Shown here: positions 2,839 through 51,202 of the stretch, piece after piece
Layout of the letters: each line of letters opens with the position of its first letter
Numbering within the stretch: the first letter of the stretch is position 1
Assembly (NCBI RefSeq): GCF_005047595.1
Contig: NZ_SUPL01000001.1
Coordinates: 186,001-250,000, forward strand
Direction: 5' to 3'
Length of the DNA stretch: 64,000 nt
DNA from: Pontimicrobium aquaticum
Lineage (GTDB): Bacteria; Bacteroidota; Bacteroidia; Flavobacteriales; Flavobacteriaceae
Notes under the pieces: model-generated
What the model was told of the DNA's origin: nothing
The model's input: the letters and a program-made list of their open reading frames with translations, nothing else
Database searches by the model: none
Translations under genes and position numbers: made by a program

Positions 2839-3810
2839 ATGAGCAATTATTTAGAAACTACTTACGACGTATATAAAGAAGCGGCATTAACACCAGATGT
2901 AGGCTTATGTTGTACCACTAACCCTATTTGGGAATTACCAGGTTTAAAAATTCCTCGTATCATGCAGGAAATGAATTATGGTTGTGGTAGCACAGTACAT
3001 GCACGTGATTTAACCAACAACCCCAAAATGCTCTATGTTGGCGTTGGTGGTGGTATGGAACTATTGCAATTTGCTTACTTTAATCGTCAAAAAAGTGGTG
3101 TAATTGGTGTTGATGTGGTTGATGAAATGCTAGAAGCATCTCGTAAAAATTTCATTGAAGCCGAAGCGCAAAACCCTTGGTTTAAAAGTGAGTTTGTTGA
3201 TCTTAAAAAAGGCGATGCTATGAATCTTCCTGTTCAAGACAATAGTATTGATGTAGCAGCACAAAATTGCTTATTCAATATTTTTAAAGCAGACGACCTA
3301 AAAAAGGCCATTGCCGAAATGTATCGTGTATTAAAACCTCACGGACGTTTAGTAATGAGTGATCCAACCTGTGAACAACCAATGAATGATGAGCTTCGTA
3401 ATGATGAGCGTTTAAGAGCTTTATGCCTAAGTGGTAGCTTGCCAATTGCTGAATATGTAAAAGCACTAACAGATGCTGGATTTGGAACCATTGAGATTCG
3501 TGCAAGAAAACCATACAGAATCTTAGATTCTAAAAATTATCCTACGGACAAATTGATTTATATAGAATCTATTGAAGTTGCCGCAATAAAAGATCCAATG
3601 CCAAGTGATGGTCCATGTATATTTACAGGGAAAGCGGCTATCTATTTTGGTGACCAAGACTATTTTGATGACAAAGCTGGACATGTACTTTTAAAAAACC
3701 AGCCATTAGCAATTTGCGATAAAACCGCTGGAACTTTAGCAAATCTTAATCGTGATGATATTCATATTAGTGAATCTACTTATCACTATGATGGTGGAGG
3801 CTGTTGTTAA
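2839..3810 (+). CDS. arsM: Arsenosugar biosynthesis arsenite methyltransferase ArsM
   Basis: This is a 323-residue class I SAM-dependent methyltransferase that methylates As(III). The SAM-binding glycine-rich loop is LYVGVGGGMELLQFAY (about 65-80), followed by the acidic end of strand 2 (GVDVVDEML). Conserved cysteines likely to hold arsenic are Cys24/Cys25, Cys49, Cys144 (AAQNCLFNIF) and Cys196 (LRALCLSGS). The protein ends in GGGCC, an extra vicinal Cys pair. It would supply the dimethylarsenite used by ArsS. It lies 18 nt after the DoxX gene in the same operon. Confidence 0.92.
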   Translation: MSNYLETTYDVYKEAALTPDVGLCCTTNPIWELPGLKIPRIMQEMNYGCGSTVHARDLTNNPKMLYVGVGGGMELLQFAYFNRQKSGVIGVDVVDEMLEASRKNFIEAEAQNPWFKSEFVDLKKGDAMNLPVQDNSIDVAAQNCLFNIFKADDLKKAIAEMYRVLKPHGRLVMSDPTCEQPMNDELRNDERLRALCLSGSLPIAEYVKALTDAGFGTIEIRARKPYRILDSKNYPTDKLIYIESIEVAAIKDPMPSDGPCIFTGKAAIYFGDQDYFDDKAGHVLLKNQPLAICDKTAGTLANLNRDDIHISESTYHYDGGGCC

Positions 3811-3830: not shown

Positions 3831-4538
3831 ATGAATCTTATAAAAAAACTATTATTTGTTCCTCTATTTATACTAGGAACTGCAGTATTTGCACAAAAAG
3901 TTAATCACGATCAATGGACTACTTTGTTAAAAACCCATGTCGATTCTAAAGGAAATGTAGATTACAAAGGGTTTAAAAAGAACGTTAATAAGTTAGATGC
4001 TTATTTAAAAACACTGTCTCAAAACAAACCAGCAAGCAACGCATCTAAAAACGAAAAATTAGCCTACTGGATAAATGTTTATAATGCCTTTACCGTAAAA
4101 TTAATTATTGATAATTACCCTATAAAAAGCATAAAAGACATTAAACAGCCTTGGGATCAAAAATTCTTTAACATTGGTGGCGAGACCATGTCCTTAAACC
4201 ATGTTGAACATGAAATACTTCGTAAAATGGCTGAACCACGCATTCACTTTGCTATTGTATGCGCTTCTTTTTCTTGTCCTAAATTACAAAACAAGGCCTT
4301 TACAGCCCATAATTTAGAGACACAATTAACAGATGCCACAAAAGAATTTTTAGCAGATACCAACCGAAATGAAATTTCAAAAAATAACATCAAGATTTCA
4401 AAAATATTCGATTGGTTTTCAAAAGACTTTACCAAAAATGGAAGCTTGATTGATTTCTTAAATCAATATTCAGACATAAATATTTCACCAAACGCTAAAA
4501 AGCGATACAAAGATTACAATTGGGACTTGAATGACTAA
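3831..4538 (+). CDS. DUF547 domain-containing secreted protein
   Basis: The ATG at 3831 is chosen over an in-frame start at 3804 that lies inside arsM. It gives a 235-residue protein with a clean signal peptide ending FAQ. The DUF547 core is easy to see: EKLAYWINVYNAFTVKLI near residue 77, then MSLNHVEHEILR and FAIVCASFSCPKL. DUF547 has no settled biochemical role, but its conserved His/Cys pattern resembles papain-like or transglutaminase-related folds. It is a frequent arsenosugar-locus neighbour. Its 3' end overlaps the next glycosyltransferase by 8 bp. Confidence 0.85.
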   Translation: MNLIKKLLFVPLFILGTAVFAQKVNHDQWTTLLKTHVDSKGNVDYKGFKKNVNKLDAYLKTLSQNKPASNASKNEKLAYWINVYNAFTVKLIIDNYPIKSIKDIKQPWDQKFFNIGGETMSLNHVEHEILRKMAEPRIHFAIVCASFSCPKLQNKAFTAHNLETQLTDATKEFLADTNRNEISKNNIKISKIFDWFSKDFTKNGSLIDFLNQYSDINISPNAKKRYKDYNWDLND

Positions 4539-5361
4539 AATTTTAATCATTATTCCAATACTTAATGAAGCAGAAACTATTAAGCATCTGTTAGAACATT
4601 TATTAAAAAATTCATCAAAAGAAAACATTGCAGAAATTATTGTTGTTGATGGTGGAAGTACTGATGCATCGAAAGATATAGTTTTACCTTTTGTCACTTC
4701 AAGTGAATCAAATGTCAGTTTGAGTGTGGTCACTGAGCAAAGTCGAAGTGCAGTCGAAAACAAATTTGATTTGTATCGAGAATCAGATAAAAAAGGGCTT
4801 GATACTTTTCCGCAAAGCGAAAACACTCGACCTGACATTCTATTAAAAAACTCAGAAAAAGGCAGAGCCAAACAAATGAATACTGGCTCAAGCTTTGCTA
4901 CAGGTGATATTTTATACTTCTTACATGCCGATTCGTTTCCTCCTAAAAATTTTGACCTATACATTATTAATGAAGTTGAAAAAGGGAATTTAGCAGGTTG
5001 TTTTCGATTACAGTTTAATCATAACCACTGGTGGTTGCGCTTAGCAAGTTGGCTTACACAGTTTCGTTGGAGAGCCTGTCGTGGTGGCGACCAAAGTCAG
5101 TTTATTACAAAAGAACTGTTTGATGAGATTGGTGGTTTTGATGAAGCTTATACAATTTATGAAGACAACATTTTAATTAACGAGCTTTATAAACGAAAGC
5201 AATTTACAGTCATTAACAAAAAGCTCATCACCTCTGCACGTCGTTACAAACAACACGGTATTTGGAAACTACAATATCACTTTTGGACTATTTACGTGAA
5301 AAAATGGCTAGGTGCTTCTGCTGAAGAGCTTTATGATTACTATAAGAAATATGTTGCTTAA
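4531..5361 (+). CDS. GT2 glycosyltransferase, arsenosugar type (TIGR04283), with an internal repeat-derived insert
   Basis: This is a 276-residue GT-A fold transferase. Motifs are PILNEAETI near residue 8, VDGGSTD near 40, EKGRAKQMN near 109, the DxD-like LHADSFPP near 131, and GGDQSQFITKELFDEIGGF. In ordinary members only a short loop separates VDGGSTD from EKGRAKQMN. Here about 50 extra residues sit there (about 54-107), encoded by a palindromic repeat element (4713-4837) that keeps the frame. The gene therefore looks intact but is longer than usual. It is the last plus-strand gene of the arsS-arsM operon. Confidence 0.87.
   Translation: MTKILIIIPILNEAETIKHLLEHLLKNSSKENIAEIIVVDGGSTDASKDIVLPFVTSSESNVSLSVVTEQSRSAVENKFDLYRESDKKGLDTFPQSENTRPDILLKNSEKGRAKQMNTGSSFATGDILYFLHADSFPPKNFDLYIINEVEKGNLAGCFRLQFNHNHWWLRLASWLTQFRWRACRGGDQSQFITKELFDEIGGFDEAYTIYEDNILINELYKRKQFTVINKKLITSARRYKQHGIWKLQYHFWTIYVKKWLGASAEELYDYYKKYVA
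4713..4837 (+). repeat. Palindromic repeat element inserted in frame within a coding sequence
   Basis: Outer arms are AATGTCAGTTTGAGTG (4711-4726) and CACTCGACCTGACATT (4824-4839), which pair at 14 of 16 positions. An inner arm GTATCGAGAA (about 4774-4783) faces CTTGATAC (about 4799-4806). The same outer and inner arms in the same order occur in the intergenic element at 46273-46391, so both belong to one repeat family. Here the element is read through without a stop and adds about 42 residues to a glycosyltransferase. Confidence 0.85.
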
Positions 5362-46227: not shown

Positions 46228-46272
46228 CATTCCTACCTATTGTACATTTTGACTCATTAAACATTATTTTAT

Positions 46273-46391
46273 GTCAGTTCGAGTCATTTTCAATAGAAAA
46301 TTGTATCGAGAACTCTTCGTTTGAAACAAAAATTTGATTCTCGATACTAATTTCACTCATTTTCGATCGTGAAATTCACTCGAATTGACAA
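46273..46391. repeat. Intergenic palindromic repeat, same family as the in-gene element at 4713
   Basis: The outer arms TGTCAGTTCGAGT (46273-46285) and ACTCGAATTGACA (46379-46391) pair at 12 of 13 positions. The inner arms GTATCGAGAA (46304-46313) and TTCTCGATAC (46339-46348) are exact partners. It fills most of the 189-nt gap between convergent genes and may act as a terminator as well as a mobile repeat. Confidence 0.88.
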
Positions 46392-48475: not shown

Positions 48476-51202
48476 ATGGGGTTGTATCTTTTAAAATTTT
48501 CGGCATGCTTGCTTATATTATTAGTGTTTTATAAGCTCGTTCTTGAAAAGGAAAATATGCATATGTTTAAACGCTTCTATCTTTTAGGAGCCTTAGTTTT
48601 AGCCATTGTTATTCCTTTAGTAACTTTTACACAATATGTTGAGCCATTAGATCAAACTATTAGTTTATCTACTCAAGATGCACTTATCACTAATAGCATT
48701 GCTGTTACTGAAACAAATACCAACTATTTGCCTTACATCATTTGGTTAATTTATACAATTGGCGTATTGCTATTTGGCTTTAAGTTCTTTAGAAATTTGT
48801 ACCTATTAAATCATAAAATCAAACACAACCCTAAGCAACATTATAATAAATTTACGCATGTATTATTAAAAGATTTAATTGTCCCACACACTTTTTTTAA
48901 TTATATCTTTTTTAATAAATCTAAGTTTGAGGCCAACGATATTCCTGAGGAAGTTTTTTGGCACGAACAAACACATGCTAATCAAAAACACAGTATAGAT
49001 GTTGTGTTTATTGAAGCTTTACAGGTGCTGCTTTGGTTTAACCCGTTAATCTATATTATTAAGCACGCCATTAAATTAAACCACGAGTTTTTAGCAGACC
49101 AAAGCGTCTTACAAAAAGGCATCAAAACAAACAGATATCAAGAAATTATTTTAGCATTCTCATCAAGTGCTGCACAACCACAATTGGCAAACGCCATAAA
49201 TTATTCATTAATTAAAAAACGATTTACAGTTATGAAAACTCAAACCACAACACGAGGTATTTGGCTCAGAAGCCTCATACTATTACCATTACTAGCATTA
49301 ATGCTATATAGCTTTAGTGATACTAAAGTTGTTGAAAAAACAAGTATTAAGTCTATTGATAAATATCCATCAGCTAGTTCTCAAGAAACAATAACCAACA
49401 AGATAAACAAAAACTGGTTTATTACCATAGATGGTATAAAGTACTACTATACTTTTAATAACAAAGTATCTAAATATTACAACGAAAAAGGAGAAGAAAT
49501 AAAATTAGATATTGTTAAAGAGTACAATAAGAAGTATGCAAGTTATATTGATTTAAAAGACAGTGGAAATCATTATGTTCATAAGGCTAAAGAAGAAAAA
49601 CAGGCTATTGATGTTGTTTTCTCTGATTTAGGAGGCATGTACTTTAGAATGTCTTCAAAAGACAAAGCTAAAGTTAAACGTCCTATTTCACCAATTAAAC
49701 CTTATATAAAAATTACATATAAAAACGGTAAAGTTGTTTATAAAAAAAGGAGTGAGCTTACAGAAAAGGACAAAGAAAACATGATCGTTCCACCTCCCCC
49801 AGCAAAACAACAAAAAGTCACAAAATCTCAGCTCAAGGAATATAATAAACTTGCTAAAAAATACAACAACATGTCTAAAGATGAGATGCGTGTTAAAAAA
49901 AGTGATGTGGAGCGTTTAAAGTACCTTTACAGCATCATGAACGATGCGCAAAAAAAGGATGCAGAGCCATTCCCTAGTATTCCGCCGCCACCTCCAGCAC
50001 CAAAAGCTCCTATGGCGGATAAAGAAGTAGAAGCAGCAATGCCTCCTCCACCACCAATTCCAGCAGATGCTACACCTGAGCAAAAAGCCAAGTATAAAAA
50101 AGTAATTGCTAAATATGCCAAAAAATATCCTAAAAGTGTGTCTAGACGTAAATCTAAGTCTGGTGAAATGATTGAAGAAGTAGAAGTTCCTATAAGCATG
50201 TTTCCACCTCCACCACCTATGCCTAAAAATGCAACGCCTGAGCAAAAAAGAAAATACGAAGAAAGTATAAAAAAATATAAACTAGCAGTGGCAGAGTCTA
50301 AACAAAAAATGGCTAGAGTGAGAGAAGCAAGAAGTACTGAAAGAGCTCAACTTAAAGAAGTAAAAGAACAATACGCTGCCCAAAGAAAAGCATCACAAGA
50401 AGTGAAGCTTGCAAGAGTTGCCGAAATGAAGCAGCGACAAGAAAATCTAAAACAAGAAAAATTACAACGTGTTGTTGAAAGGGGAGCTATTAGTGAAGAA
50501 CGCAGAAAAGAACTAGCAAAAGAAAAGCTAAGGCGTGTGGAATTAAGACAAGTTGAAATGGAACAACGCCAAGAAAAGCTAAAACAGGAAAAAATGCAAC
50601 ATGTAGTTGAAAGACAAGCCATTAGTGAAGAACGAAAAGCGCAATTAGCAAGTGTGAAGCTAATGGAAGTAAAAGAACGGCAAATTGAAAAAGAAAAACG
50701 ACAGGTAGCTCTTCTTAAAGAAAAACTTAAACACGTTGAAGAACGCAAGGCAATGTCAGAACAAAAGAGGGAATATGCTGCGCAACAAAAAGCATCGCAA
50801 GAAGAAAAACCGTATAAGTTATCTTTAGTTGACAAATCACCAGTGTATAATGGTTGTAACAATTCCAGTTCTGAATTTGAAATTAGAAAATGTCTCTCAG
50901 AAAGTTTTACTAATCACTTTGAAAAAAACCTTAATTTAGAAATTATTAATAAAGTAAGATCAAAGGCAGATAGAAAGTTTGTTTTGGTAATGTTCAACAT
51001 AGACAAAAACGGTCATCTCTCTTCGGTACGCAGCTCATCTAAAAATGAAGACCTAAAAAAAGAATTAGGGCGAATAATAGAACTTGTTCCAAAATTAAAA
51101 CCTGGAATAAGAAAGGGTGAAGTTGTGAAAACCAAATATAGTGTATCTATTAATTTTGAAACGGACAACATTATAATTAAAGGGACATCTTCAGTTTACT
51201 AA
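48476..51202 (+). CDS. M56 (BlaR1-like) membrane metallopeptidase with repeat-rich and TonB-C-like C-terminus
   Basis: This is a 908-residue protein. The N-terminal 280 residues have four membrane helices and the HEQTH motif (163-167) with Glu180 as the third zinc ligand. After about residue 280 the chain is periplasmic. Two Pro-rich blocks with PPPPxPxxATPEQK (near 533 and 575) precede about 160 residues of charged coiled coil made of three imperfect copies of about 37 residues (one repeat reads KQEKLQRVVERGAISEER). The last about 100 residues resemble a TonB C-terminal domain. It probably signals by cleaving BlaI. Confidence 0.85.
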   Translation: MGLYLLKFSACLLILLVFYKLVLEKENMHMFKRFYLLGALVLAIVIPLVTFTQYVEPLDQTISLSTQDALITNSIAVTETNTNYLPYIIWLIYTIGVLLFGFKFFRNLYLLNHKIKHNPKQHYNKFTHVLLKDLIVPHTFFNYIFFNKSKFEANDIPEEVFWHEQTHANQKHSIDVVFIEALQVLLWFNPLIYIIKHAIKLNHEFLADQSVLQKGIKTNRYQEIILAFSSSAAQPQLANAINYSLIKKRFTVMKTQTTTRGIWLRSLILLPLLALMLYSFSDTKVVEKTSIKSIDKYPSASSQETITNKINKNWFITIDGIKYYYTFNNKVSKYYNEKGEEIKLDIVKEYNKKYASYIDLKDSGNHYVHKAKEEKQAIDVVFSDLGGMYFRMSSKDKAKVKRPISPIKPYIKITYKNGKVVYKKRSELTEKDKENMIVPPPPAKQQKVTKSQLKEYNKLAKKYNNMSKDEMRVKKSDVERLKYLYSIMNDAQKKDAEPFPSIPPPPPAPKAPMADKEVEAAMPPPPPIPADATPEQKAKYKKVIAKYAKKYPKSVSRRKSKSGEMIEEVEVPISMFPPPPPMPKNATPEQKRKYEESIKKYKLAVAESKQKMARVREARSTERAQLKEVKEQYAAQRKASQEVKLARVAEMKQRQENLKQEKLQRVVERGAISEERRKELAKEKLRRVELRQVEMEQRQEKLKQEKMQHVVERQAISEERKAQLASVKLMEVKERQIEKEKRQVALLKEKLKHVEERKAMSEQKREYAAQQKASQEEKPYKLSLVDKSPVYNGCNNSSSEFEIRKCLSESFTNHFEKNLNLEIINKVRSKADRKFVLVMFNIDKNGHLSSVRSSSKNEDLKKELGRIIELVPKLKPGIRKGEVVKTKYSVSINFETDNIIIKGTSSVY

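Follow-up and report, generated by a model that had tools for sequence, protein, structure and literature searches.

A REP-like palindromic repeat in frame in a flavobacterial arsenosugar glycosyltransferase, and related repeats in other protein loops

The glycosyltransferase gene and its in-frame element

The window, a stretch of 64,000 nucleotides from Pontimicrobium aquaticum, contains an open reading frame of 276 aa encoding a glycosyltransferase of arsenosugar biosynthesis. The arsM gene of the same pathway lies two genes upstream on the same strand, with one further open frame in between (Table 1). The protein matches NCBIfam TIGR04283 with 220 bits (cut-off 182, E 2.4e-65) as well as Pfam PF00535, and its closest solved structures are GT2 enzymes, e.g. 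the GT2 fucosyltransferase WrtF. It is ~45 residues longer than insert-free orthologues (~230 aa), with all of the excess located between VDGGSTD and EKGRAKQMN. A first-pass annotation of this DNA had placed about 50 extra residues there.

An AlphaFold2 model, based on 56 orthologues, reaches a mean pLDDT of 87, and 214 of the 276 residues score 90 or higher. The whole element encodes residues about 54-102, and residues 65-96 fall below a pLDDT of 50, between a helix (47-56) and a strand (102-107). The model predicts the insert to be a disordered loop of the enzyme. In the usual GT-A topology, the loop that links helix 2 to strand 3 faces away from the nucleotide site.

The element was delimited with covariance model R1, built from 24 half-copies, none of which was taken from the glycosyltransferase gene. 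R1 finds the left half at 4692-4782 (E 7e-7) and the right half at 4796-4837 on the minus strand (E 1.4e-4), while the next matches within the window after the true halves have an E of about 3. Because both halves are found separately, the true element spans 4692-4837. The insert site had been located correctly before, but not its extent of 4711-4839: the outer left arm already lies at 4692, and 4711 is the start of the nested repeat. Similarly, the palindrome and its nested inner arms were recognised, but the palindrome is not near-perfect, since nested repeats interrupt its left half. In the window copy, the nesting is three deep. The type B-like repeat in the side-hairpin loop is common to the inserts of G005 and HKST-UBA71 and absent from those of G001 and G003, and the 24-bp piece is missing at the same place in the related G005 and HKST-UBA71 inserts.

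When folding was compared with shuffled sequences, the insert DNA reached a z of -3.4 and the second copy in the window a z of -4.8. This second copy is not inside any ORF and carries the same arms in the same order, with both halves matched by R1, as had been noted for a non-coding gap. The central claim of the first-pass annotation, i.e. a dispersed palindromic repeat in frame and without a stop in an arsenosugar glycosyltransferase, is upheld by the R1 matches to both halves, the TIGR04283 match and the insert-free orthologues. Elsewhere in the window, at 50423-50686, a tandem pair of 132-nt units was observed that are 73% identical.

Table 1. Features of the in-frame element, its host gene and its surroundings (positions in the window)
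Feature	Position	Strand	Evidence
arsM of arsenosugar biosynthesis (context)	2839..3810	+	NCBIfam NF038099, 575 bits
Arsenosugar biosynthesis glycosyltransferase (GT2 fold, TIGR04283), host of the insert	4531..5361	+	TIGR04283, PF00535, WrtF fold
Whole in-frame palindromic REP-like element, two inverted halves	4692..4837	+	R1 matches to both halves
Left outer arm: TGTCA tag and first strand of side hairpin (TGTCACTTCAAGTGAATCAAA)	4692..4712	+	R1, arm coordinates
Second repeat, type B-like (TGTCAGTTTGAG...CAGTCGAAAACA), nested in side-hairpin loop	4713..4762	+	Comparison of relatives' inserts
Third nested piece, 24 bp (TGTGGTCACTGAGCAAAGTCGAAG)	4725..4748	+	Present in window copy only
Side-hairpin return strand and left inner arm (TTTGATTTGTATCGAGAA)	4765..4782	+	R1, arm coordinates
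Right inner arm (GGGCTTGATAC)	4795..4805	-	R1, arm coordinates
Right side hairpin (TTTTCCGCAAAGCGAAAA)	4806..4823	-	Arm coordinates
Right outer arm with tag (CACTCGACCTGACA)	4824..4837	-	R1, arm coordinates
Intergenic copy of the same element	46272..46390	halves 46272-46312 plus, 46338-46390 minus	R1, E 3.7e-13 and 1.4e-9

Hairpin architecture, dispersed copies and the search for a mobiliser

The half-elements are mostly 39-54 nt long and follow the pattern TGTCA-NNN-CGAG-loop-TCGAG-N'N'N', in which the stem triplets NNN/N'N'N' covary (GTT/AAC, CTT/AAG, ATT/AAT, CAT/ATG, GGT/ACC). Of the 79 halves examined from four genomes, 74 have complementary triplets, whereas 10,000 shuffles gave 25.4 on average and 44 at most. 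Therefore, each half is a separate hairpin with the AG bulge that is typical of REPs, and the palindrome consists of two such hairpins in inverted orientation. Type A carries an additional side hairpin and type B the short loop GCGCAG. Both occur in the glycosyltransferase loop, together with types C (CTGAATCAAGTTCAG) and D (AGGTTTTTAAAACCT); a fifth palindrome, the GTCATTGCGA type, is seen in PurL and HemW. Types A, B and this fifth type start with GTCA or a close variant.

A census by model and pattern searches yielded 54 R1 half-sites at ~33 loci in the 3.3-Mb genome of P. aquaticum, ~29 of them intergenic, and the sole full palindrome within a CDS is the glycosyltransferase copy. The arms thus do recur in the genome, as the repeat reading of the first-pass annotation had implied. 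Half-sites are mostly paired, inverted and within about 150 bp of each other, with singles occurring too. In C. lentus, G001 and W. thalassocola, the sampled full elements are likewise intergenic except for the glycosyltransferase copy (with one doubtful short-frame overlap in G001). In P. aquaticum, type A elements cluster within ~6 kb at one locus (L194, C19:258148-264457), far more densely than elsewhere in the genome.

As with REPs and REPINs (PMC3116915, PMC8266576, PMC2817692), the element is a short, imperfect single-strand palindrome, a tagged and bulged hairpin that is dispersed, mostly intergenic and often arranged in inverted pairs. In contrast to these, its conserved 5' tag is TGTCA rather than CGTC or the usual REP tetranucleotide GTAG, type A has the extra side hairpin, and no cognate RAYT flanked by the same repeat was found.

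Y1 transposases were searched, using PF01797, because REPs are linked to RAYTs. The REP anatomy with its tag, bulge and inverted pairs would suit a REPIN moved by a host RAYT (TnpA-REP), as would a single half-element in G001 that lies 77 bp from a RAYT-like gene. However, the RAYTs here are flanked by other palindromes (CCGCGCGAA..., TGCGAAGTT...). The sole RAYT of P. aquaticum (L081 1250-1910, C17:256574) is bordered by another, CCGCGCGAATCTTTCGCGTGG-like inverted repeat, which should be the REP family of that RAYT itself, and the G001 RAYT by its own palindromes TGCGAAGTT...AACTTCGCA. R1 gave no match near the RAYT at 30 RAYT homologues, and PF01797 gave none in C. lentus, G003 and G002, which have 62, 22 and 13 half-sites, respectively. 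The neighbouring half in G001 was consequently rejected as support for a RAYT mobiliser, given that this RAYT has palindromes of its own and no other RAYT locus carries the element. Mobilisation by a RAYT is thus considered quite improbable. Since no cognate RAYT was found, the repeat is described as REP-like in form and not filed as a RAYT-linked REP. A separate observation from this survey is a RAYT-like Y1 domain fused in one frame to the coproporphyrinogen III oxidase HemF (505-527 aa; L233, L236, L240 and L241) in four genomes of Winogradskyella and Mariniflexile; Pfam finds both domains in L236, the one that was scanned.

Turnover of the glycosyltransferase loop

Among 86 glycosyltransferase orthologues, mostly from named Flavobacteriaceae genome records, the loop ranges from 18 to 76 residues. 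A recognisable repeat is present in 36 of them (fuzzy matches, a few weak), the loop palindrome has a z below -3 against codon shuffles in 20, and 17 beat all 200 shuffles. More than half carry no typed repeat, and 30 of these loops are long nonetheless, as might be the case in a plain indel-rich loop with a palindrome produced by chance or composition. This explanation has a negligible probability in view of the independent R1 matches to both halves, the perfect or near-perfect palindromes in this loop and the same repeats in intergenic DNA. Some orthologues carry no insert. Among the orthologues compared, an empty allele in a very close relative was not found, nor was a target duplication evident at the insert junctions read, both of which the first-pass annotation had suggested looking for. 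It had also named palindrome-free orthologues with the same insertion as evidence against a repeat. These are found in part: Algibacter and Hyunsoonleella have in common a ~50-residue loop without a palindrome, which probably represents decayed insertions.

Repeat states mapped on a gene tree made without the loop require 29 changes, a count that is blind to gain versus loss. Sister pairs with gene bodies 92-97% identical have loops that are unrelated or half-replaced (Winogradskyella BWSM122/UBA93, Hanstruepera neustonica/6_bin19, W. pacifica/W. thalassocola), and the loops of Hanstruepera ponticola and 6_bin19 resemble half-deleted elements. Type B occurs in two tag registers and both orientations, in three combinations in all; therefore, at least two type B insertions took place, and probably three. 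A single simple insertion, as first proposed, does not account for the nested insertions, nor for sister species that carry different families in this loop.

Across genera, the type A inserts of the glycosyltransferase all share one register and one left-arm type; purely independent type A insertions are therefore not supported. A glycosyltransferase-specific right-arm subtype is moreover common to Gaetbulibacter and Confluentibacter. Part of the type A inserts may therefore descend from one insertion, and for these shared features one ancestral insertion fits better than many.

The age of the insert was then compared with that of the gene at silent sites. In three non-overlapping pairs, pS is 0.14 in the insert and 0.61 in the remaining gene (bootstrap difference by codon 0.35-0.58; the insert is short, with 31 codons compared), so at silent sites the insert is diverged about a quarter as much as the flanking gene. 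Therefore, the insert DNA is younger than the gene lineages, or has been refreshed. The pN/pS of the insert is 0.81-3.05 in these pairs and, over 18 overlapping pairs, 1.05 versus 0.24 elsewhere in the gene. With a ratio near 1, the peptide is not conserved for its sequence: it is tolerated, while the DNA that encodes it turns over. The term 'exapted', used in the first-pass annotation, is not supported for a peptide that is predicted to be disordered, and the lack of protein-level constraint argues against exaptation at that level.

The low silent divergence, the common type A register and left arm, and the fact that some type A inserts are closer to each other than to sampled intergenic copies of their own genome could also be explained by a single ancient insertion that passed vertically to every type A carrier. 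Selection on a hairpin in the DNA or mRNA would then maintain the palindrome, an exaptation in the true sense but at the level of nucleic acid, with types B and D as minor, separate events. This is unlikely: some carriers have lost their palindromicity (z near 0 in Confluentibacter sediminis), types change between sister species, as they also do in PurL and HemW, several orthologues are insert-free, and nonsynonymous change is unrestrained. A stronger candidate, possible at clearly less than even probability, is one old insertion whose DNA was repeatedly overwritten by gene conversion from dispersed copies instead of by fresh insertions. The need for the outer arms to align would keep the register constant, as is seen in type A, silent divergence would stay low, and donors are plentiful, with 35-63 half-sites in five genomes that also carry inserts. 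The right-arm subtype of the C. lentus insert, however, is absent from 18 sampled intergenic elements of that genome, and the two registers and both orientations of type B, as well as the GTCATTGCGA-type repeats at HemW and PurL, need new insertions. The silent-site result is compatible with both fresh insertion and conversion.

Other coding hosts and comparison with known palindromic elements

A search with the type A peptide across 299 genomes of the family returned ten clear matches in long open frames, all in the glycosyltransferase loop. The other long frames with the type A peptide that were read (DinB-like, acetolactate synthase-like and SPFH-like as judged by eye) were rejected as insertions, being stop-to-stop extensions upstream of likely start codons. 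The glycosyltransferase is the only coding host for type A in one register, but as a general statement this is overturned by PurL, HisA and HemW. The first two were reached with the type B peptide search, HisA being listed as a coding host from its peptide match.

The inter-domain linker of PurL is 7-8 residues when empty, e.g. in P. aquaticum. Depending on the species, it otherwise holds one of four repeat forms: a type B copy, a single half of type A or of type B, or a GTCATTGCGA-type palindrome. At one locus (L375), a nested repeat in turn splits the type B copy, and in several species the tags of different families begin at the same nucleotide. The proportion of repeat-bearing PurL loci is not a frequency, since the loci were best matches to an insert-bearing query. 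In HemW, named from its sequence, as was the pyruvate dehydrogenase E2 subunit below, the C-terminal loop contains a type A half in the four Gaetbulibacter-group genomes G000-G003, and at the same loop G005 and G011 have a GTCATTGCGA-type palindrome. In P. aquaticum, one perfect half on its own is located in frame close to the HemW C-terminus (C1:256396). G011 belongs to another genus, and its HemW tail (L408) closely resembles that of the Gaetbulibacter group, palindrome included, which hints at gene transfer. Two further coding repeats may be present in the pyruvate dehydrogenase E2 subunit of P. aquaticum (L193, C16:421207), whose linkers include a GTCATTCCGAACGAAGGTGAGGAATCT stretch as well as a weaker, type B-like half (VTSSPVEKS).

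Palindromes that lie in frame in genes have been described in Rickettsia (Ogata et al. 2000, 2002, cited after PMC10969869 and PMC3733652), and intragenic REPs in several other bacteria (PMC3733652). The Rickettsia palindromic elements (RPEs) are repeats of ~100-150 bp in several families per genome, located between genes and in frame in otherwise normal enzymes, with a peptide compatible with the host protein. The flavobacterial repeats are alike in these respects, and a dispersed palindrome in frame in a functional gene and absent from orthologues is found in the glycosyltransferase, PurL and HemW. The likeness is one of kind. As for differences, the phylum is another one, the hairpin architecture is built on TGTCA-tagged halves, the sampled full type A elements are mostly intergenic, and one protein loop is hit by several families in different flavobacteria, with nesting.

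Intragenic GTAG and CGTC REPs also occur as dimers and clusters (PMC3733652, 2013). In recB, X. campestris and X. oryzae have REPs at roughly matching positions, while REPs in genes of one functional category otherwise lie at different sites (PMC3733652). Unlike these, the flavobacterial case combines a single loop with many families across genera and a silent-site test of turnover. Bacterial MITEs such as ERIC, Correia/NEMIS and Nezha (PMC10969869) are also small, non-autonomous and sometimes in frame, but for the present element no parental transposase (PF01797 survey), terminal repeat match or target duplication was identified. The glycosyltransferase insert is an in-frame, selfish-DNA variant of the known kind of coding palindrome. 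In a literature search of incomplete coverage, no report of in-frame palindromes was found for Flavobacteriaceae, in agreement with the first-pass remark that they are known in a few bacteria and little described in flavobacteria; coding palindromic elements seem undescribed in this phylum.

In sum, a dispersed REP-like element lies in frame in a loop where repeats recur and nest and where the peptide shows no constraint. Very probably, this loop is a recurrent landing site, subject to nesting, deletion and replacement by other families, as are the loops of PurL, HemW and HisA. A copy of the palindrome would have landed in frame between helix 2 and strand 3, either by a transposition-like insertion or by conversion from dispersed copies. 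Exposure and disorder of the loop, together with the open frame of the repeat in the register used, would explain why the insert is tolerated, and this tolerance is probably the reason for the site. Selection would then retain only frame-preserving insertions and deletions. Entry of repeats, nesting, partial deletion and exchange for other families would proceed at a higher pace than the divergence of the gene around the loop, and very probably do so as well in the PurL inter-domain linker, the HemW C-terminal loop and HisA. As a tentative and rather doubtful extension, a non-RAYT mobile system of Bacteroidota might move families of GTCA...TGAC-ended palindromes that prefer fixed points in a few protein loops, i.e. 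those of the glycosyltransferase, PurL, HemW and perhaps HisA and pyruvate dehydrogenase E2, as exchangeable docking sites.

In-frame palindromic selfish DNA, best known from Rickettsia and from scattered proteobacterial REPs, is here widespread in a free-living family of another phylum. As the repeats at a given loop differ or are nested from one species of these marine flavobacteria to another, selfish DNA of the Rickettsia type is also active in this phylum. For annotation, repeat-bearing loops should not be read as functional domains. The silent-site test separates the age of an insert from that of its gene, and since related species show the loop empty, filled, nested and half-deleted, the route from repeat to protein, its rate and its cost become testable.
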